Positions 13,774-34,793 of a stretch of DNA of 41,727 nt are shown in pieces. Each line of letters opens with the position of its first letter. Position 1 is the stretch's first letter. The notes below the pieces were generated by a model. It was not told the DNA's origin. It worked only from the letters and a program-made list of their open reading frames with translations, and did no database searches. The translations under genes and the position numbers were made by a program. The stretch lies in contig NZ_JAAHHG010000015.1 in assembly GCF_010692555.1 (NCBI RefSeq), forward strand, positions 1 to 41,727, in the 5' to 3' direction. This stretch comes from Okeania sp. SIO3B5 (GTDB taxonomy: Bacteria > Cyanobacteriota > Cyanobacteriia > Cyanobacteriales > Microcoleaceae).

Positions 13774-14055
13774 TTAACGATTAAATTCTTTTCTCAATTC
13801 TTCTAAATTGGGAATATTTTCTCGGTCTTGCCAAATTCCCTTAGCTTCTTGCATTAAATATAATCGTTCCCTGGTTAAAAAGCCATCGACTTTAATTGGT
13901 TTTTCTGTCAGATAGTCAATTATGTCTTTGCCTATTTTTGTTTGAGATTTTTGTAAAATTTCCAGTTGATTTTTTGCTTGAAATGCCTCGATAATTGCTT
14001 GTATTTGTTCAATTTGTTCTGGTTTTAAACCACTGACATTAATTGTTTGGTTCAT
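13774..14055 (-). CDS. Antitoxin-like small protein
   Basis: A 93-residue protein beginning MNQTINVSGLKPEQIEQIQAIIEAFQAKNQLE, followed by a polar middle and the tail LTRERLYLMQEAKGIWQDRENIPNLEELRKEFNR. The start (strand then helix) and acidic/basic helical tail are the layout of small cyanobacterial antitoxins whose C-terminus wraps a PIN- or RelE-type toxin. No toxin overlaps it on either side, so it would be an orphan. It lies 51 bases downstream of the next antitoxin-like gene on the same strand. Function is inferred from neighbours and length only. Confidence 0.65.
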   Translation of the reverse strand: MNQTINVSGLKPEQIEQIQAIIEAFQAKNQLEILQKSQTKIGKDIIDYLTEKPIKVDGFLTRERLYLMQEAKGIWQDRENIPNLEELRKEFNR

Positions 14056-14106
14056 GGTTGTTTTTGATTATAGAATTATATTATTTTAGCACAAAGTGGT
14101 GAATTA

Positions 14107-14373
14107 TCATTGCTCATCTAATTCATCCCAAGTTTGTAATTCTTGCAATTCTTTATTTTGCCGATAATGTTCTAACATTTTTTCTGCTTGCTTTGCTAAA
14201 ATTTCTCGTCTTTTTTCTAATGGTAATTTCATTAAATAACTGGCATCTATTTCATCTTTTTCTTGGAGGTAAGTCAAGAAATTTAGGGCTATTTTTAGTC
14301 GTTCCGGGGAAAGATTTACTAACTTTTCTTTGGCAGCTTCAAGGATTGTGGGGGATGTTGATTTTAATGACAT
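14107..14373 (-). CDS. Antitoxin-like small protein
   Basis: An 88-residue, highly charged helical protein. LVNLSPERLKIALNFLTYLQEKDE in the first half is a frequent N-terminal block of cyanobacterial antitoxins. LMKLPLEKRREILAKQAEKMLEHYRQNKE in the second half resembles the toxin-facing tail of a different antitoxin group, so it may be a module-swapped antitoxin. It lies 23 bases downstream of the DUF5615 toxin gene on the same strand and may be transcribed with it. It has no toxin of its own. Confidence 0.65.
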   Translation of the reverse strand: MSLKSTSPTILEAAKEKLVNLSPERLKIALNFLTYLQEKDEIDASYLMKLPLEKRREILAKQAEKMLEHYRQNKELQELQTWDELDEQ

Positions 14374-14396
14374 TTTTGACTTCCTTACCTTCTCTT

Positions 14397-14729
14397 TTAA
14401 TATAGAACTAAAACTGAATTACTGGCATCTTGACTCAAATCTATAATATCATCATACCGAGAACGTAAAAGTATCTCAATTTCAGATGTTGTGCAATTTC
14501 CTACCCTGATCCAGATTAATTTAGGAGGAAAACCAAGCAAAATTACCAAATCATAAAAATCAGCATCTTTAGTGACAATAATATATTCATTATCACGAGC
14601 ATACTGCCATACATCTCGATCGTTAGCTTGGTCTAATCCTAAAAAATAAAGATGACTTGATTGTGGATAAATATCAGCTAAACGTGACACTAAACGAGGT
14701 GATAAATTATGGTCGAATAAAAGTTTCAT
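14397..14729 (-). CDS. DUF5615 PIN-like toxin
   Basis: A 110-residue PIN-fold protein. It opens MKLLFDHNLSPRLVSRLADIYPQSSH with the first acidic residue, then LGLDQANDRDVWQYARDNEYIIVTKDADFYDLV, which supplies the D-x-D-F acidic pair, then PPKLIWIRVGNCTT. These are the hallmarks of DUF5615, a compact PIN relative expected to be a ribonuclease toxin. Start and stop are intact. It overlaps the upstream DUF433 gene by four bases. This is the one complete DUF433-DUF5615 pair in the window; the copy at 35678-36377 has a dead toxin. Confidence 0.88.
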   Translation of the reverse strand: MKLLFDHNLSPRLVSRLADIYPQSSHLYFLGLDQANDRDVWQYARDNEYIIVTKDADFYDLVILLGFPPKLIWIRVGNCTTSEIEILLRSRYDDIIDLSQDASNSVLVLY

Positions 14730-14950
14730 TTGGGTACTATTAAAGTTTGTTGTTCCCGTTCAGCAGCATAGTTCAGACAAGCCAAAATATCCTGTTTTGT
14801 TAAATAGGGAAAATCTTCTAATAATTCTTCATAAGTCATTCCCGCAGCTAGATAAGAAAGTACGTCATAAACAGTTATTCTCATACCTCGAATACAAGGT
14901 TTTCCACTGCGTTTTCCTGGTTCAATAGTAATAATTTTTGATTCTGACAT
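14726..14950 (-). CDS. DUF433 antitoxin
   Basis: A 74-residue DUF433 protein: IITIEPGKRSGKPCIRGMRITVYDVLSYLAAGMTYEELLEDFPYLTKQDILACLNYAAERE. The G-K-P-x-I-x-G-x-R-I-T block and the DFPYLT...D...AL-YAA helix-turn-helix are the family signature. Its stop overlaps the start of the DUF5615 toxin by four bases. By analogy it neutralises the toxin and represses the operon. Confidence 0.9.
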   Translation of the reverse strand: MSESKIITIEPGKRSGKPCIRGMRITVYDVLSYLAAGMTYEELLEDFPYLTKQDILACLNYAAEREQQTLIVPK

Positions 14951-15014
14951 ATTTAGTTGATAGATTTGGTTGATTAAATTATTGTATTTATTAATTATTT
15001 GAGGTTAGGGAGTA

Positions 15015-15494
15015 TTATTCGACATCTATTCCCTCCCACATTTGAGAAAGGGGAATGCGTTGTTCAGATTTTGCTTCTTGCAATGCTCTTCTGAGACTAG
15101 CTTTTATTTCTTCAACAGGAGTATTATCTGGATCGGGTTGAGCTTTAGCTCTTTGCAGTTTGGCACGGATAGCTTCTGTTCCTGGTTTTGTGGGTGTGGT
15201 AGCAATGCGAGCAAATAGGGTGCTATTTTGTGCTTCCCAATATTTTTGGAGTGCTTCTGCTTCTTGGAGTACCGTTTGATATTCTGCTTCAACTTCTGGA
15301 CGGTGAGCTTCGATGTAAGATAAAGCTGCCTGAAGTTGTTCGTCGGTGAGACTTAACATACTGCGGATGAAGTGAGGTGGGTACTGTGCAGTTAAATAGT
15401 CCATGATGTCGTAGATGGTTATGCGAGTTCCTGTTATTGTTAATCCTCGTTCCGTTATGCCGATCGCTTTTTGTTGATTAGATGGAGATGTCAT
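15015..15494 (-). CDS. Chimeric antitoxin: DUF433 domain fused to a RelN-type tail
   Basis: The protein has 159 residues if it starts at the ATG 15492-15494 (MTSPSNQQKAIGITERGL); a longer start at 15548 is possible. Residues 8-80 are a DUF433-like domain (ITGTRITIYDIMDYLTAQYPPHFIRSMLSLTDEQLQAALSYIE). A linker with RIATTPTKPGTEAI follows. The last 40 residues (PDPDNTPVEEIKASLRRAL...) are the tail of the RelN antitoxin at 12508-12762, with 44 identical bases. It has the DNA-binding part of one family and the toxin-binding part of another. No toxin is adjacent. Confidence 0.82.
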   Translation of the reverse strand: MTSPSNQQKAIGITERGLTITGTRITIYDIMDYLTAQYPPHFIRSMLSLTDEQLQAALSYIEAHRPEVEAEYQTVLQEAEALQKYWEAQNSTLFARIATTPTKPGTEAIRAKLQRAKAQPDPDNTPVEEIKASLRRALQEAKSEQRIPLSQMWEGIDVE

Positions 15495-15581
15495 TTTCAG
15501 ATTTATTATGAATTTGTCTTTAATTATATCATCAAAGCTAAGTTCCATATCTATTAATAATTTTTAGTTCATTAGGAAAAT

Positions 15582-16775: not shown

Positions 16776-19700
16776 CTATTTGACTTCCTCTTGACAAACT
16801 TTTAATTTATCTTTTTCTTCGGGGCGAGTAGTTAAATATTCTTGCAACCAATCGCATCCTGTTGCTAATAGTTCGTTTAAGTTTTGATAACGCCAAATCA
16901 TTACTTTTTTTGTCCCTACTGCTATATATTTACCATCTGGAGAAAACACAATCTTGGATTCAGAATTATGATATTGGTTTCTTTCAGGAATAGTAAATTT
17001 AGCAAGTTTCTTTCCATCGATACTCCAAACAGTTAATTCATTAGGCAGATGTGATAAAACAGCAATTTTTTGACTGTCTGGACTAAAATTCAAAGTATTT
17101 TTTTGTTTTTCTAGTTTTATCTGGGTAATCAACTTCCCAGAAGTATCCCATATTTTTACTGAATAATCTAATCCCGATCCTGTTATTAATTTGCTATCAG
17201 GACTAAAGTATATCTTAAAAATGGAATTGTTGCTCTGTATAGTAGTATTTTGATTATTTTTTAGATTCCTTAAATTCAATTCTTTTCCAGCAGGATACCA
17301 TGTTATCAAATGCTTACTATCAGGGCTAAATTTTGCATTATATCCAGAAATATAATTGCTTCTATCAAGAATCAACTTTTCTCTAACAATTATTTTTTCT
17401 TCAATTTTGTCATCACGACTTTTGACTTTAATTTTAACTGAAGTGCCAGGTTCTCCTTTTAGTAGAGAATATATTTCTTCTATACTGTAACCAGAAACAT
17501 TTTGCTCATCTATTGACAAAATTATGTCACCATTTTTTAAACCTGTTTTTCTAGCTGTAGAATTTTCCCAAACATCAAATACTTTCACTTTTTGTCTGTT
17601 ATCTAGCATAATAGCTACAACTGAAATTTCTGATTCCTCAGAAGGTAAAAATGATTTAAGTTTTATTTTTAATGGATTAAGTAAATTTCCATGCTCGTCC
17701 CAAATTCTTACTACGTTTCCACTTCCACTTAATGTGACAAGATATTTGCCATTGGGACTCATTACTACTTTCCTAGTTCGATAAAGGGAGGGATGTATTA
17801 ATCGCTTAAATTCCTTAGTAGATAGATTCCACAAATGCACAGGAAAGTCAGCCTCACTAAAACCAAAAGTGGTGTCCACACCGATAGTTGCTATTTTTTC
17901 TCCATCATAACTAGATGTATAGAGGTTGCTTTTCGGTAGCGGATAAAAACTCTCAAAAACTGTTTCTTCCTTGTTAAGCTCATTAGGATTAATTTTAATT
18001 TGAGAAATTAATTGATTTTCTAAGTTCCGTTTTTGAATACCTTCTTCATTAATAAAACCGAAAGATTTTCTATCAGGAGCGAGATGAATGTTAGCATCAC
18101 CCTCACTAAATTCAAATGTTTTAACTTCTTTCTCTGACCAATTCCAAATATCTAAATTATTTCGGAAAAAAGGCGAGTCTTGAACCAATAGCTTTTGACC
18201 ATCTGTACTATACTGAAAGTTCTTAATTGTTGATATTTTTTTACCTGAAACTACAAATTGTTCTTTTTCATAAATCTTTGGCAGCTCTATAAAATTAGAG
18301 TTATTGTTAGTAACATTAAGTAATTTAATTTCCGTACTATCTGCCATAGCAATAGTCTGACTATCATGGCTGTAACTTAAACCTTCTTTACTGAAAGCTA
18401 GACCAGCGTTAGATGATAAACCATTAACAGTTAGAGTATTAGTTTCAAGTCCCGTTATCGCATCATACAACTTAATTATCCCTGTACCAGATGATTGAGC
18501 TACTTTTTGGTCAGACGATTCTACTTCTATCTTTGCTCCTTGAATCCCTATAGCAATTTGTTTACTATCGGGACTAAAACTCATGGTATAAAAGCCATCA
18601 ATATTTGGAACATAAAAGCGAGTGATTTCTTGACCTGAAAAATTCCATAATTTTGCTATTTTATCTGATGAATCAACATCCGTTCCTAATGTTAATATTT
18701 TCTTGTCATTAGGACTCACAATTAATTGAGAAATTCCATTGGTATTTGCCTGAAATTCTCTGAGCTTTTTGAAGGTTTTTAAGTTCCAATACTCTACCAT
18801 TCCTTTAGGATTTCCTGTAACAATTTGTTGACTATCATTAGTGTCAACAAAATCAAAATCAAATAACGATTCGTCAATATTTTCACTTACAGTTAATTCT
18901 CCTACTTCTTGAAGAGACAGATTAAAAACTCTAAGTTTAGTGATACTTTTTCCTTCCCCCGTTTCAGTCAAAATGTAACTTGCCGATCTTAGAGCAATAT
19001 ATTGACTATCTGGACTAAATTTAGGATTGGAAAAGGACGAATATACTGAACCTAAATACCCTTTGTTATCTAATTGCGCTATTTGTTTACCCGAAAAATC
19101 CATAAGATACAAGTGATTTATTCCCATAGCAGCAATGTATTTACCATCAGGACTAATAGCAAAATCAAATACTCCTTCAGGAACATCCCATTCAGCGATT
19201 TTTTCACCAGATTTGCTCTGAATTATAAATTGATGATTTTTTCCTACTAAAGACATATTCAAAGAAACAATTTGTTTACCATCAGGAGCAAAAAGAACTT
19301 TATAAATTGCAGAAGTATTACTGCCGCTTTCTAAGACATTTTTCTCTCGAATATTGCTAGTAATAGTCTGCAACGCCAACAAAGGTTGAGTAGTCGGATA
19401 ATTCCCCAACTTTTCGTCATCTTTTACCAACTTTTTCAACTTTTGCCCTGCATCCATCGCCGTCATTAAAGCACTAATTCCACCTTCCCCAGACTGAAAT
19501 TGATTCAATGCTAAATTACTCAAATTCTCTGCTTCATTAATCAAACTTTGTCTTTCCGCACGTTGCCATTGCCATGCAACCCCTACAAGAGAAAAAGAAA
19601 CTATCGCCAAACCACCTGCTAACCCATAAATAAGTTTTTGCCGCTCCCTCTCTCGTCTTTTCCTACTTTTATCAACATACCCCCTCTCTTTCTCAGGAAT

Positions 19701-22106
19701 TTTTTGCTCTCCTTTTTCCAACCAACTTTCTGCCTCCTTTAACAACCCCCCTTGCAACAAATACTCATCCTTCTTTTCCTTTTCCCACTGACTCAAATTA
19801 TCTCTTAATTTCTCTTGCCAACGTCGAAATTCCCAATCTTGCTCTATCCATTTTTTTAACCGACTCCAAGCGGTAATTAAAACCTCGTGAATTAACTCCA
19901 CAGAAGCTACATCTTTTTCCTTATTTGTCACCACCAAACGCTCGTCGGCAAATTTAATTACTAACTGCCAATTTTCTTTTCCAATATCTGCAAAAGTAGC
20001 AATTTTCCGAGTAGCAATGCGACTAACTTCCCCCGATTTTTCCTGACTTATAGGTTGTACTAATTGAGTAAAAATATATCGCGCCTGCTCTTTTTCCTCC
20101 TGACTTAACCCAATATAAATCTTTTCGGCATAATCCCCCAAAACTTGAGTCAAACCCCCAATCTCTTCATAACTCGCCAGAGAAATTACCCCATATTTTT
20201 GCTTTTTCCATAACTCCTCCAAAGCAAATTGCAGCATCGGTAAATGACCAGAATTTTGCCGATAATCTTGAATCATTCTCTTAATCAACTCATCCGCAAA
20301 TTCCACCTCAAACTTTTCAGCAGGGAGAGCGATCGCCTCCTTCAACTCTTCATCATTCATAGGAGTAATTAACTTATCCCGTTCATCAAAAATCTTACCC
20401 AAATCTTCATCCAAAGCTTGAGATAAAAAATCTGCCCGTAAAGTTAAAACAATTTTCCAACTATCATCCCGAACCGCATCAACCAAACCTGCTAAAAATG
20501 ACCGACGTTTCTCCTCAGAACATAAAGTATAAAGTTCCTCAAATTGGTCAATTACCAACAAAATTTGACAACCTTTCTTTTCTTGCACAATGCCAGTTAA
20601 ACATTTAGCTAACTTCCCTGAATTAGTCTCCAAATTTGCCACTAATTCCCCAAAACCTGAATTATTCGCAGTTAAATTCGGTGAAATTTTCCCCAATTCT
20701 TCAGCCAAATTTTCCCAAGGATTCGGATGAGGAAAACCAGGACGAATTTTCACCACAAAACGGGGTAAAATTTCCGTAGCTTGAGCCAACCATTGAGGAA
20801 TTAAACCAGCAGCAACCAAAGAAGATTTCCCACTACCCGAAGCACCAATCACAGCGACTAAATTTTGCCTGTCCACCTTTTCCAATAAAGAATTAGTCAA
20901 CACTTTCCTGCCAAAAAATATCTCCGTATCATTTTCAGTAAAAGCACTCAATCCTTTGTAGGGAGATATCTGAATCTTTCCTCCCAACTCCAACCAACGG
21001 GGAGGAATTTCCGCAGGATTTTGACATAAAACAGGTAACCAACTCACACAAGGAAAATCCTTTTCTAATATTTGTAACCTTTGCCGACTCTCCCGCAAAG
21101 AACTATATAAAGATAAACCTTGAGTATAATTTTCCAGAAAAAATTGGAGAAAATTCGGAGCAATAACTACAGGTAAATTTTCCCGCATCACAATAATTTG
21201 CGGTAAATGTAAATCCTCACCTTCTGCCAATTGATAAGCCAAACCTAAACCATTACAAGCATTAAAAATCGCCAATTTTAAACCAGACTTAACAGCTTGT
21301 AGAAGATGATTTTTTATTTCAGAAATAGTCAAAACATCTTGACCATTAATTTGAATCGTACCAATACTGCCATTATCTTTAGTCTTGCCATGACCAGCAA
21401 AAAATAAAATATCCCAAGATTTTTGCCACAAAGGTTCATCTAATTCAGAACGTTGAGGTTCTATTAACCAACAAATTTCTGCATCAGGAATTAATTTTCT
21501 AATCACCTCTTCATCAGCATCAGTTCCCGCATTATCTCCCAAAATAACTAAAATTTTTATTTTATCTTTTTTGTCTAATTTTTTCGCCGTATCAACTCGT
21601 TGAAAATTAGGAGTAGCTAGAGCAATTTCAGCCTTCGGAAAATCTTTTAAAAAATCCCATTCATGCCAAGGCAAACGTCGTAAACCATAATTTTCAGTTG
21701 CCAATAAAATCCTCGTACTTTCCGATTTATCTAAATAATTCCGAAGCAAAATTTCTATGGATTGAAAATCGGAGGAATTTAACCAAGTATTGAAAGTTTG
21801 AGCTAATAAATTAGCAGCATTTTTACAAGCTGCAAAAGCTCCATTTTTATCGTTATCAGAAATATTAGTAAAACCTGCTTTCGATTTTAAACGGTTAGAA
21901 AAAAAGACATCTAAATTTGTATATAAACTTTGCCAATGACGATACTGCTCCAAAATTTCCGAATGTGGAGGTAAATGTGCTGACTTGCTAGCGATCGCTA
22001 AACTAGGTTCATTTTTTATCGAATCTACATCCTGCCAAATTTCACCCCGCACCGAAAAACCCTCGTGAAACCCGCCATCAATATTGAGAGTAACTAACTT
22101 TCCCAT
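16776..22106 (-). CDS. CHAT protease - STAND NTPase - TM - WD40 protein with embedded PDZ domain
   Basis: A 1776-residue signalling protein. The start is at ATG 22104-22106 (MGKLVTLNIDGGF), because the 35 codons further upstream translate a 41-bp tandem repeat. A CHAT caspase-like protease (about 120-370) has its dyad at FFAGHGK (His 239) and FNACNGLG (Cys 284). An nSTAND1-type NTPase follows, with SPYKGLSAFTENDTEIFFGR, Walker A GASGSGKSS (421-429) and Walker B LLVIDQFEEL (Asp 520). A basic stretch and one membrane segment lie at about 826-845. A WD40 region (about 930-1745, SPDGKYIA/SPDSKQI repeats) is interrupted by a PDZ-like domain at about 1495-1575 (ARKTGLKNGDIILSIDEQNVSG). CHAT-STAND-WD40 proteins are cyanobacterial metacaspase-like switches; substrate and trigger are unknown. 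It stands alone. Confidence 0.93.
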   Translation of the reverse strand: MGKLVTLNIDGGFHEGFSVRGEIWQDVDSIKNEPSLAIASKSAHLPPHSEILEQYRHWQSLYTNLDVFFSNRLKSKAGFTNISDNDKNGAFAACKNAANLLAQTFNTWLNSSDFQSIEILLRNYLDKSESTRILLATENYGLRRLPWHEWDFLKDFPKAEIALATPNFQRVDTAKKLDKKDKIKILVILGDNAGTDADEEVIRKLIPDAEICWLIEPQRSELDEPLWQKSWDILFFAGHGKTKDNGSIGTIQINGQDVLTISEIKNHLLQAVKSGLKLAIFNACNGLGLAYQLAEGEDLHLPQIIVMRENLPVVIAPNFLQFFLENYTQGLSLYSSLRESRQRLQILEKDFPCVSWLPVLCQNPAEIPPRWLELGGKIQISPYKGLSAFTENDTEIFFGRKVLTNSLLEKVDRQNLVAVIGASGSGKSSLVAAGLIPQWLAQATEILPRFVVKIRPGFPHPNPWENLAEELGKISPNLTANNSGFGELVANLETNSGKLAKCLTGIVQEKKGCQILLVIDQFEELYTLCSEEKRRSFLAGLVDAVRDDSWKIVLTLRADFLSQALDEDLGKIFDERDKLITPMNDEELKEAIALPAEKFEVEFADELIKRMIQDYRQNSGHLPMLQFALEELWKKQKYGVISLASYEEIGGLTQVLGDYAEKIYIGLSQEEKEQARYIFTQLVQPISQEKSGEVSRIATRKIATFADIGKENWQLVIKFADERLVVTNKEKDVASVELIHEVLITAWSRLKKWIEQDWEFRRWQEKLRDNLSQWEKEKKDEYLLQGGLLKEAESWLEKGEQKIPEKERGYVDKSRKRRERERQKLIYGLAGGLAIVSFSLVGVAWQWQRAERQSLINEAENLSNLALNQFQSGEGGISALMTAMDAGQKLKKLVKDDEKLGNYPTTQPLLALQTITSNIREKNVLESGSNTSAIYKVLFAPDGKQIVSLNMSLVGKNHQFIIQSKSGEKIAEWDVPEGVFDFAISPDGKYIAAMGINHLYLMDFSGKQIAQLDNKGYLGSVYSSFSNPKFSPDSQYIALRSASYILTETGEGKSITKLRVFNLSLQEVGELTVSENIDESLFDFDFVDTNDSQQIVTGNPKGMVEYWNLKTFKKLREFQANTNGISQLIVSPNDKKILTLGTDVDSSDKIAKLWNFSGQEITRFYVPNIDGFYTMSFSPDSKQIAIGIQGAKIEVESSDQKVAQSSGTGIIKLYDAITGLETNTLTVNGLSSNAGLAFSKEGLSYSHDSQTIAMADSTEIKLLNVTNNNSNFIELPKIYEKEQFVVSGKKISTIKNFQYSTDGQKLLVQDSPFFRNNLDIWNWSEKEVKTFEFSEGDANIHLAPDRKSFGFINEEGIQKRNLENQLISQIKINPNELNKEETVFESFYPLPKSNLYTSSYDGEKIATIGVDTTFGFSEADFPVHLWNLSTKEFKRLIHPSLYRTRKVVMSPNGKYLVTLSGSGNVVRIWDEHGNLLNPLKIKLKSFLPSEESEISVVAIMLDNRQKVKVFDVWENSTARKTGLKNGDIILSIDEQNVSGYSIEEIYSLLKGEPGTSVKIKVKSRDDKIEEKIIVREKLILDRSNYISGYNAKFSPDSKHLITWYPAGKELNLRNLKNNQNTTIQSNNSIFKIYFSPDSKLITGSGLDYSVKIWDTSGKLITQIKLEKQKNTLNFSPDSQKIAVLSHLPNELTVWSIDGKKLAKFTIPERNQYHNSESKIVFSPDGKYIAVGTKKVMIWRYQNLNELLATGCDWLQEYLTTRPEEKDKLKVCQEEVK

Positions 22107-22145
22107 AACTGCTCCTAAATTTATCAGAATGACATACAAGTTAAA

Positions 22146-22226
22146 TAGTGAAAATCTTGTGGCGTGGGCATCTTGCCCGCGATAGCGGTGAAAATCTTGT
22201 GGCGCGTGCATCTTGCCTGCGATAGC
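22146..22226. repeat. Two copies of a 41-bp repeat with GGGCATCTTGCCCGC palindrome
   Basis: GTGAAAATCTTGTGGCG followed by a G/C palindrome and GATAGC occurs at 22147 and 22188. The palindrome is shared with 13700 and 15860. It lies just ahead of the CHAT gene and is translated only if an upstream start at 22211 is used. Another direct repeat (CCTCATAACA...CTGTAA) is at 22225-22252 and 22305-22332. Confidence 0.7.
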
Positions 22227-33587: not shown

Positions 33588-34793
33588 TCAATTCGGCAAC
33601 TTATATTGACCTACAATTTTCTTAGCAAATTCCGGCACATGAGCTTCTAATTTTTCTGGATAATTCCGCTTCACATAAAGATAATTACGAGTGAAATGAG
33701 AATCAATAGAAAACCGCCCATATTCTAAACCTTTAGGACCAATTTTTTCAATAACAACCCCCATTAATTTGGCAGCCCACATCGGCAAAGTAACAGCTTG
33801 ATCGTAAGCCGGAATACTTTGTTGAACAGCATTTTTTCGATCTCCCTGAGACATTACAGGTTGAGTATCTAACTGATTCATCACCAAATCTAACATTTCT
33901 TTTCCTGTCTCATTCCTAACAGTAATCCACTGCCAACCAAAAGGCGCTCCCATATATCCTACCACCAAATCTGCTAAACCATTTACATAGTCAAAACAAC
34001 TCATACAAGAAGGAGCAAAAACATCTTTTAATTTCTTAGTATTTAACCCAAAAAATGGCACTTTTTCTATTGTTCCATCCTCATGTTTAAAATGTACTCG
34101 AAAGTCTTGCATAAATTCATAATGCACCACAGTTTCTGGGGACTTACTCGTAGTATCTAAGAACTTTTGCAAACCCTCTCTTGTGACATTATCCACACAA
34201 GGAGTTCCCAAAACATAGAGCTTTTCTAAACCTAATTGTTTTTCCACGGTTCGTAATGCTTGAATCTGACAACCAACCCCAATTACTAACAGTTTTTTCA
34301 TCCCAGATTTTTCAATTTCTTCTAATACCGAAAGATTAGGAGAAAGAGTTGGTTTATTCACTTTTGCTGCCAATACTTCCTCTGGAGTCCGGGCAATAAC
34401 TGGCATCGGTTGAAAGCGGTCTTCCTTAGTATTTTGCACACAGACAACACCCTCTACAATATTTTGATTGAGCATTTCACAGGCGATCGTACTCACAATA
34501 CCAGTCCATTGTGCGCCCTCAATAGGTTGTTTTTTGCGAGCTGCCATCATATCTTGATGAACGCCAAAATAGGTCTCATTATCATTGTCTAGGTTGCGGG
34601 TGCGTCCGTGAGTTTGTTGTTCGAGGTTGTCAAATTGTTGATTAAGAAATGCACAAGCATCCTTGACATAATGGATATAATATGTGTCGCACAAACCACA
34701 TTCGCTACAGAGTTCTTTGGCAGGGCGACGGGCACCTGGTCTGAGAGCTTTAGCTTTCTTGTGTTTAGGGATGTTTGGAGTTGAGATAGTCAT
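33588..34793 (-). CDS. bciB: Ferredoxin-dependent 3,8-divinyl (proto)chlorophyllide 8-vinyl reductase
   Basis: BciB reduces the 8-vinyl group of divinyl protochlorophyllide or chlorophyllide during chlorophyll a synthesis, using ferredoxin, FAD and 4Fe-4S clusters. The 401-residue length is usual. The N-terminal cysteine cluster CSECGLCDTYYIHYVKDACAF is typical of the FrhB-like family, with further Cys in GVGCQIQALR, GTPCVD and APSCMSCFDYVN. GRTRNLDNDNETYFGVH matches the cyanobacterial Slr1923 group. Start ATG at 34791-34793. It is a single gene with a TTATCAG heptamer tract in its leader region. Confidence 0.94.
   Translation of the reverse strand: MTISTPNIPKHKKAKALRPGARRPAKELCSECGLCDTYYIHYVKDACAFLNQQFDNLEQQTHGRTRNLDNDNETYFGVHQDMMAARKKQPIEGAQWTGIVSTIACEMLNQNIVEGVVCVQNTKEDRFQPMPVIARTPEEVLAAKVNKPTLSPNLSVLEEIEKSGMKKLLVIGVGCQIQALRTVEKQLGLEKLYVLGTPCVDNVTREGLQKFLDTTSKSPETVVHYEFMQDFRVHFKHEDGTIEKVPFFGLNTKKLKDVFAPSCMSCFDYVNGLADLVVGYMGAPFGWQWITVRNETGKEMLDLVMNQLDTQPVMSQGDRKNAVQQSIPAYDQAVTLPMWAAKLMGVVIEKIGPKGLEYGRFSIDSHFTRNYLYVKRNYPEKLEAHVPEFAKKIVGQYKLPN

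Follow-up and report, generated by a model that had tools for sequence, protein, structure and literature searches.

The window, by which we mean the whole 41,727-nucleotide stretch of DNA that was analysed (contig C57 of its own 11.06-Mb genome, with Okeania records as its nearest named relatives), carries a gene for a protein in which a CHAT protease, an nSTAND1 NTPase, a single membrane helix and two WD40 propellers follow one another, and in which a PDZ domain is inserted between blades of the second propeller. This protein is a genuine and rare form of a receptor class that is common in cyanobacteria. We estimate at roughly 0.55 the probability that it acts as a membrane-anchored, apoptosome-like receptor, with the CHAT and STAND parts inside, the WD40 and PDZ sensor outside, and a death or defence response as its output. 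The features of the gene are as follows:

16776..22106, minus strand: whole gene, 1,776 amino acids, with the ATG at 22106 and the stop codon at 16778-16776
22112..22116, minus strand: AGGAG, ribosome-binding-like site in the sequence upstream of the ATG at 22106
20973..22106, minus strand: CHAT caspase/separase-like protease, residues 1-378 (Pfam PF12770, predicted model)
21390..21392, minus strand: dyad histidine His239 (FAGHGK), kept in all 90 frames spanning the position
21255..21257, minus strand: Cys284 of the dyad (FNACNG), likewise kept in 90 of 90 frames spanning the position
19764..20963, minus strand: nSTAND1 NTPase, residues 382-781 (Pfam PF20703, 359.5 bits)
20820-20846, minus strand: Walker A motif GASGSGKSS, residues 421-429 (motif position)
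20535-20561, minus strand: Walker B motif LLVIDQFEE, residues 516-524 (motif position)
19572..19634, minus strand: single transmembrane helix, residues 825-845, predicted N-in/C-out (hydropathy 2.04, Lys/Arg bias)
18303..19349, minus strand: WD40 propeller 1, residues 920-1268 (model residues 30-378; seven c-strand motifs by manual count)
17646..18302, minus strand: WD40 propeller 2, first part, residues 1269-1487 (model and motif positions)
17352..17645, minus strand: inserted PDZ domain of CTP/S41 type, residues ~1488-1585 (PDZ profiles, strand/helix order, absence from the relative L022)
16872..17351, minus strand: WD40 propeller 2, second part, residues 1586-1745 (model and motif positions)
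16779..16871, minus strand: C-terminal tail, residues 1746-1776, with C1751 and C1771 (conserved again among the Okeania relatives)

The sequence-only reading of this DNA had placed the gene at the correct coordinates and did not give the strand, which is minus; the plus-strand frame across the same interval contains many stops. A longer start at 22211 is possible, but the ribosome-binding-like site and the agreement with the starts of relatives (MGKLVTLNIDG in L072, L076 and L077) favour 22106. The domains claimed from the letters, namely the CHAT dyad, Walker A and B, one membrane helix, WD40 repeats and a PDZ domain, were all recovered in the claimed order by Pfam profiles and structure models. 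Among the best 25 of 41 Pfam families (in a scan numbered on the protein without its Met), CHAT (PF12770) scored 33.3 bits against a cut-off of 24, nSTAND1 (PF20703) exceeded its cut-off of 27.1, WD40 reached 65.4 bits (cut-off 27), and three PDZ families matched: PDZ_6 with 39.0 bits (cut-off 27) at 1513-1561, PDZ_2 with 33.5 bits (27) and PDZ with 25.7 bits (23.2).

By fold and by its His-Cys dyad the protein is a CHAT peptidase, and proteolysis is its predicted activity. A structure prediction of residues 1-380 (pLDDT 87.8, pTM 0.89; 29 sequences) matched separase (Z 24.3, rmsd 3.3 over 315 residues), Csx29/TPR-CHAT (Z 20.4), gingipain (Z 17.9) and the transmembrane anti-sigma factor DdvA (Z 15.5), and the top Foldseek rows for the same model were a CRISPR caspase regulator, separase and SAVED-CHAT. 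The separase and Csx29/TPR-CHAT matches thus bear out the resemblance to triggered CHAT proteases that had been proposed from the letters. Across 93 matching frames, the 90 that span both H239 and C284 keep both residues; the retention of the histidine is partly selected for, since one scan pattern, WDI[LI][FI]F[AV]G, sits just N-terminal of it. The adjoining domain is assigned as an nSTAND1 NTPase by its profile and its Walker A and B motifs, and we only propose that it oligomerises in an ATP-dependent manner. The search with PADLOC returned mad3 only, as a weak match (18 bits) at the P-loop, which we set down among the points against the apoptosome-like reading. In the same 11-Mb genome the CHAT profile matches 71 times, in 70 cases above its cut-off, which shows how large this class is.

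For the sensor, an AlphaFold2 model of residues 891-1776 (pLDDT 76.2; 18 sequences) had a pTM of 0.60, and the arrangement of its domains is therefore uncertain. Propeller 1 of this model resembles RbBP5 (Z 30.7) and WDR5 (Z 28.7), and a second propeller with eight c-strand motifs (manual count) lies C-terminal of it. Double-propeller proteins are among the matches to the sensor model, as is Apaf-1 (Z 28.8, but with an rmsd of 10.0 over 596 residues), which Foldseek listed as well.

Two features of the chain bear on its orientation in the membrane. Lys and Arg residues average 6.5 before the helix and 1.6 after it, with more before than after in 53 of the 54 related frames (the sole exception being L123). 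In the window protein, eight cysteines precede the helix and only the pair C1751 and C1771, spaced 20 residues apart, follows it. A manual count over the 54 frames gave at least 39 that carry two or more cysteines within roughly their final 50 residues; several of these bear further cysteines in the sensor, and some of the 54 frames are cut short or are without any. Given the positive-inside bias and the lone C-terminal cysteine pair, the sensor is predicted to be outside the cytoplasm, where it would probably lie across the membrane from the CHAT-STAND part, in the periplasm or the thylakoid lumen. Soluble STAND receptors, unlike the window protein, have no membrane helix between switch and sensor, and we count this difference against our preferred explanation of an apoptosome-like receptor.

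In the sensor model, the PDZ block (model residues 602-690, with 10-residue pLDDT means of 62-91) shows the strand and helix order of a PDZ domain and sits after the strand at model residues 585-590 and before the strand at 700-703. Fold searches, which were run with the whole sensor, listed propeller and WD40 chains only. A related cyanobacterial protein, L022 (48% identical), is without exactly this block, and in the alignment its flanking blades join directly, from which it follows that the PDZ domain is a true insertion; a second relative, L023 (40% identical), has it at the same place in the alignment of near-full-length relatives. The sensor model and the comparison with L022 thus agree with the earlier suggestion that the PDZ domain is embedded between WD40 blades, and place it in propeller 2. 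By profile the domain is nearest to the CTP/S41 type (TIGR00225, E 3.5e-12), of which only the PDZ part was matched (positions 28-128 of 335); the S41 catalytic domain is absent, and WD40 blades stand on both sides.

The sequence-only reading had further suggested that the PDZ domain recognises a C-terminal tag, such as proteolytic fragments. The domain itself is real, but this part of the claim is weakened by its carboxylate-binding loop, which reads VVAI in the window protein, MLAI, IPSV, ALAI, ILPI and RIAI in others, and GIGI in L023. The loop glycine is replaced by Ala, Ser or Pro in six of the seven family members, the window protein included, and is present in all 21 aligned comparison PDZ domains. 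Because Ala or Ser leaves the backbone amide in place, tail binding would still be possible; a classical tail reader is less likely, the loop bearing on the type of ligand and not on the fold.

A true reader of C-terminal peptides, one that would report proteolysis or envelope damage by capturing the tails of unfolded or cleaved extracytoplasmic proteins, is accordingly a possibility to which we give only modest weight. The PDZ domains of CTP and HtrA proteins bind C-terminal tails, and the CTP/S41-like profile and the predicted outside position of the window's PDZ domain are both in line with such a role. The loops SGIGI of L023 and TGVGL of a Cyanosarcina locus (L096) keep the glycine, and it is in these two proteins that tail binding would be easiest to entertain; in the six members that have lost it, binding would be weakened or altered. 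We give a similar, tentative weight to the alternative that the PDZ domain binds nothing itself and is an insertion tolerated at the blade junction as structural decoration. L022 manages without the domain and the carboxylate loop has decayed, both as expected for such a decoration. Yet the core NSTA..(A/T)GL is kept in all seven copies found to span the PDZ site, with the following G-D in six of the seven, and a PDZ domain entered L096 separately.

The PDZ domain occurs at the same blade junction in six relatives (L072, L073, L075, L076, L077 and L023). The order search, covering 30 frames of at least 800 amino acids, gave two frames with this PDZ type, the window's own and L023, and the named-genome search over 80 loci gave the other five with the PDZ at the same site, and L096 with one elsewhere; L074 ends before the PDZ site. 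Below E 0.3, a wider PDZ profile run on 269 frames of at least 600 amino acids gave a single TPR protein besides the known copies and the duplicates of these that the genus search had contributed. Within the genus, the window's PDZ type was found in four of five genomes, three of which are apparently records of L072, L073 and L076, as judged by equal frame lengths and scores. Across 386 genomes sampled from the phylum, a match running across blade and PDZ was seen in the window's own genome only, and the other 20 matches were to the PDZ alone (15 in frames of 413-461 amino acids and five in frames of 177-191). The window's own genome has 12 PDZ_6 matches, of which only the window's lies in a frame longer than 1,000 amino acids. 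The same genome (C220) also encodes an 838-amino-acid frame, at L207:2244-4760, that combines Trypsin_2, many TPR repeats and a PDZ domain.

L096 carries CHAT (45.1 bits), nSTAND1 and a separate PDZ domain of CTP type (PDZ_6 51.4 bits, intact loop). This domain stands between an FSPDG strand before it and an LWN strand after it, a propeller site different from the window's, which suggests at least two separate entries of a PDZ domain into this receptor class. A search of 386 genomes for the L096 type, in which at most six candidates were scored per genome, gave 276 genomes with a match at E <= 1e-12. Among the matches listed, those that covered the PDZ domain fell in frames some 410-530 amino acids long, as in CTPs, and three in other frames (1599, 1354 and 396 amino acids) covered the WD40 part only; rarer L096-like chimeras may have been missed. 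The genome searches thus divide the earlier impression that the architecture is unfamiliar: the base CHAT-nSTAND-WD40 architecture is routine in cyanobacteria, and the variant with the PDZ domain is not. Literature searches, which covered titles and the openings of abstracts among the papers listed, mostly outside subscription papers, met no description of CHAT-nSTAND-WD40 with a PDZ domain.

When the window gene was compared with four Okeania copies (L072, L073, L076 and L077) by the NG86 method, its two halves proved to differ sharply. CHAT shares 91.0-93.4% amino acid identity with dS 0.12-0.18, and STAND 91.2-93.5% with dS 0.14-0.21. Identity falls to 37.2-40.6% over residues 921-1480 (dS 0.93-1.21), 45.1-54.4% over the PDZ domain (dS 0.84-1.05) and 54.7-57.1% over residues 1590-1735 (dS 0.91-1.37), and is 80.5-87.8% over the last 41 residues (dS 0.07-0.18); values of dS near 1 are approximate only, as the region aligns poorly. 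In 25-residue windows, the drop in identity starts at 906-955, and identity recovers gradually from residue 1656 or so, regaining high values past roughly 1730. The contrast is present in all ten pairs of the five copies, and is mildest between L072 and L076 (69.8% identity and dS 0.37 over 921-1480). From the higher synonymous divergence, the sensor halves would seem either to be older than the executioner halves or to have been replaced separately from them. The sensor half varies between close relatives as a recognition module would.

Two controls give a background for this contrast. A 401-amino-acid gene at 33588-34793 of the window has 95-96% DNA identity in the four other genomes of the genus. 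An orthologous Peptidase_C14-nSTAND1-WD40 receptor, present in all five genomes of the genus (L202-L206, frames of 1,512-1,521 amino acids; domain scan on L202 only), has 70-100% identity per 100-residue block over its ten pairs, with the lowest block in the NTPase part, WD40 blocks at 82-100% and no drop at the sensor. In this one orthologous control, the idea that WD40 sensors of the genus are fast-evolving in general does not hold.

The divergence jump could also be an assembly chimera or an alignment artefact, given that the four Okeania records compared are all titled MAG and that L073 and L076 are irregular. We consider this highly improbable, as the contrast recurs in ten of ten pairs from five assemblies, is bounded by conserved sequence on both sides and involves intact frames in three of the five. 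Alternatively, the sensor half might be degenerating under relaxed constraint instead of diversifying for recognition, and broken copies do exist: L076 (9841-15267) is split by a frameshift, L073 (from 9985) is without residues 1-158, and a gene fragment with four in-frame stops lies at G513:C188:491-832. This alternative seems unlikely to us, because the sensor dS is about 4-10 times that of CHAT/STAND, which relaxed constraint on the protein alone would not yield, and because the window frame is open over its full length, its blade motifs and C-terminal tail are kept, and another WD40 receptor of the genus is without the pattern.

Conflict between trees was considered as proof of sensor exchange and rejected, as the best sensor tree is the same as the forced tree that holds the Okeania copies together. 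In that tree the Okeania copies stand apart from L075, L022 and L023 (80% support), so that sensor exchange from outside the genus lacks support from the trees. L075 groups with L022 in the STAND tree (100%), and L023 with L022 in the CHAT tree (67%). The STAND parts of L075 and L022 are far from those of Okeania and the CHAT part of L075 is close, which suggests that it was L075, and not the window gene, whose STAND module was exchanged.

DNA similarity to the window starts only 80-174 bases before the ATG in L072, L076 and L077, and the window's own upstream genes had no match beside the receptor gene in the available flanks of the relatives. The genomic position of the gene is therefore not conserved. 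A look downstream for cassettes that could donate sensor sequence revealed none; only short copies of the 3' end lie downstream of L072 and L075, and no such copies were found downstream within the window. At L072:8371-10846 and L075:8382-9482, segments of 29-159 bases from the 3' end of the gene and its 3' flank are repeated at 90-97% identity. They alternate with small genes resembling toxin-antitoxin pairs, an arrangement that looks like the outcome of pair insertions accompanied by duplication of the receptor gene's 3' end. Small downstream genes at 13774-15563 of the window, which we take to be DUF433/DUF5615-like, also resemble toxin-antitoxin pairs and have close copies downstream of the L072 relative.

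Among known proteins, L022 is a CHAT-nSTAND1-WD40 protein with the same membrane helix and C-terminal cysteine tail as the window protein, and differs in having no PDZ domain. Plasmid matches annotated as 'WD-repeat protein' or 'CHAT domain-containing protein' (H1, H2 and H4, with 57-86% query cover) are likened to it by match and annotation. The genus's own Peptidase_C14-nSTAND1-WD40 receptor shares a caspase-superfamily protease, nSTAND1, WD40 and, by eye, a hydrophobic stretch before the WD40 part, whereas its protease is C14 instead of CHAT and its sensor is conserved across the genus instead of divergent. Apaf-1 is soluble, combines a STAND-class NTPase (NB-ARC) with a CARD and recruits a separate caspase. 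Like the window protein it has tandem WD40 propellers after a STAND-class NTPase, but the window protein has nSTAND1 and an N-terminal CHAT domain, so that the protease is part of its own chain, and in it a membrane helix separates switch from sensor. Csx29/TPR-CHAT (Craspase) and SAVED-CHAT, which respond to RNA-guided or nucleotide-sensing triggers, have the CHAT fold in common with it and no STAND or WD40 part. The closest profile relatives of its PDZ domain, the S41 carboxyl-terminal processing proteases, differ in that the window protein has no S41 catalytic domain and that most members of its family have lost the loop glycine.

Known receptors of cell death and immunity have the layout of a STAND switch joined to a WD40 sensor, and this layout, together with the Apaf-1 likeness of the sensor model, speaks against a different role, that of an envelope-stress signalling protease whose CHAT domain cleaves a regulator once the outer sensor is engaged. 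Such a role would agree with the membrane topology, the DdvA match of the CHAT model and the CTP-type PDZ domain; strong variation of the sensor among close relatives would be unusual for a sensor of a conserved signal, and we regard the role as doubtful.

Metacaspase-NACHT-WD40 proteins, as described in PMC3501461 and PMC2853523, likewise join a caspase-superfamily protease, an NTPase switch and WD40 in one chain, with a p20-type protease and NACHT in the places of the window's CHAT and nSTAND1; the term "PDZ" is absent from the main texts of both papers. PDZ domains have been reported on GTPase components of GAP1-N2 systems (PMC7159879) and both among the variable C-terminal domains of a bacterial TRADD-N-linked gene and among adaptor domains (PMC8195603). 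Retroelement-driven hypermutation of sensors on STAND proteins, as outlined in PMC10907252, is a different mechanism; PMC7517822 lists CHAT-like and WD40 parts among the targets of cyanobacterial retroelements. The Podospora HNWD genes, which are also WD-repeat recognition genes, reportedly combine rapid diversification with a death-linked non-self response (PMC1805685 and PMC2873952); they are fungal and vary by WD-repeat instability, whereas in the window family the whole sensor differs.

By analogy with known STAND and CHAT proteins, each activation step of the apoptosome-like receptor that we favour can be outlined. The CHAT protease and the nSTAND1 switch would reside in the cytoplasm, with the tandem WD40 propellers and the PDZ domain across the membrane. 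Binding of an outer ligand to the sensor would release the STAND switch, which would then bind ATP and oligomerise, bringing CHAT protomers together so that cytoplasmic targets are cleaved, most likely with cell death or defence as the outcome. At the blade junction of propeller 2, the PDZ domain would most likely provide a surface to which peptides or strands bind, and not act as a strict reader of C-terminal tags. A bolder version, speculative and in our judgement improbable, is that of a transmembrane bacterial apoptosome for recognition of kin or non-self, in which a conserved CHAT-STAND executioner is kept uniform by recombination in conserved flanks (the membrane-proximal region and the C-terminal tail) as the outer sensor is replaced or diversified as a block.

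If the apoptosome-like reading is right, filamentous cyanobacteria would couple an outside signal to a built-in caspase-like protease through a STAND switch, all within a single polypeptide. A sensor that diverges while its executioner stays uniform, together with the natural pair with and without the PDZ domain (the window protein and L022), opens both the mapping of the ligand and the question of bacterial non-self recognition to direct testing.
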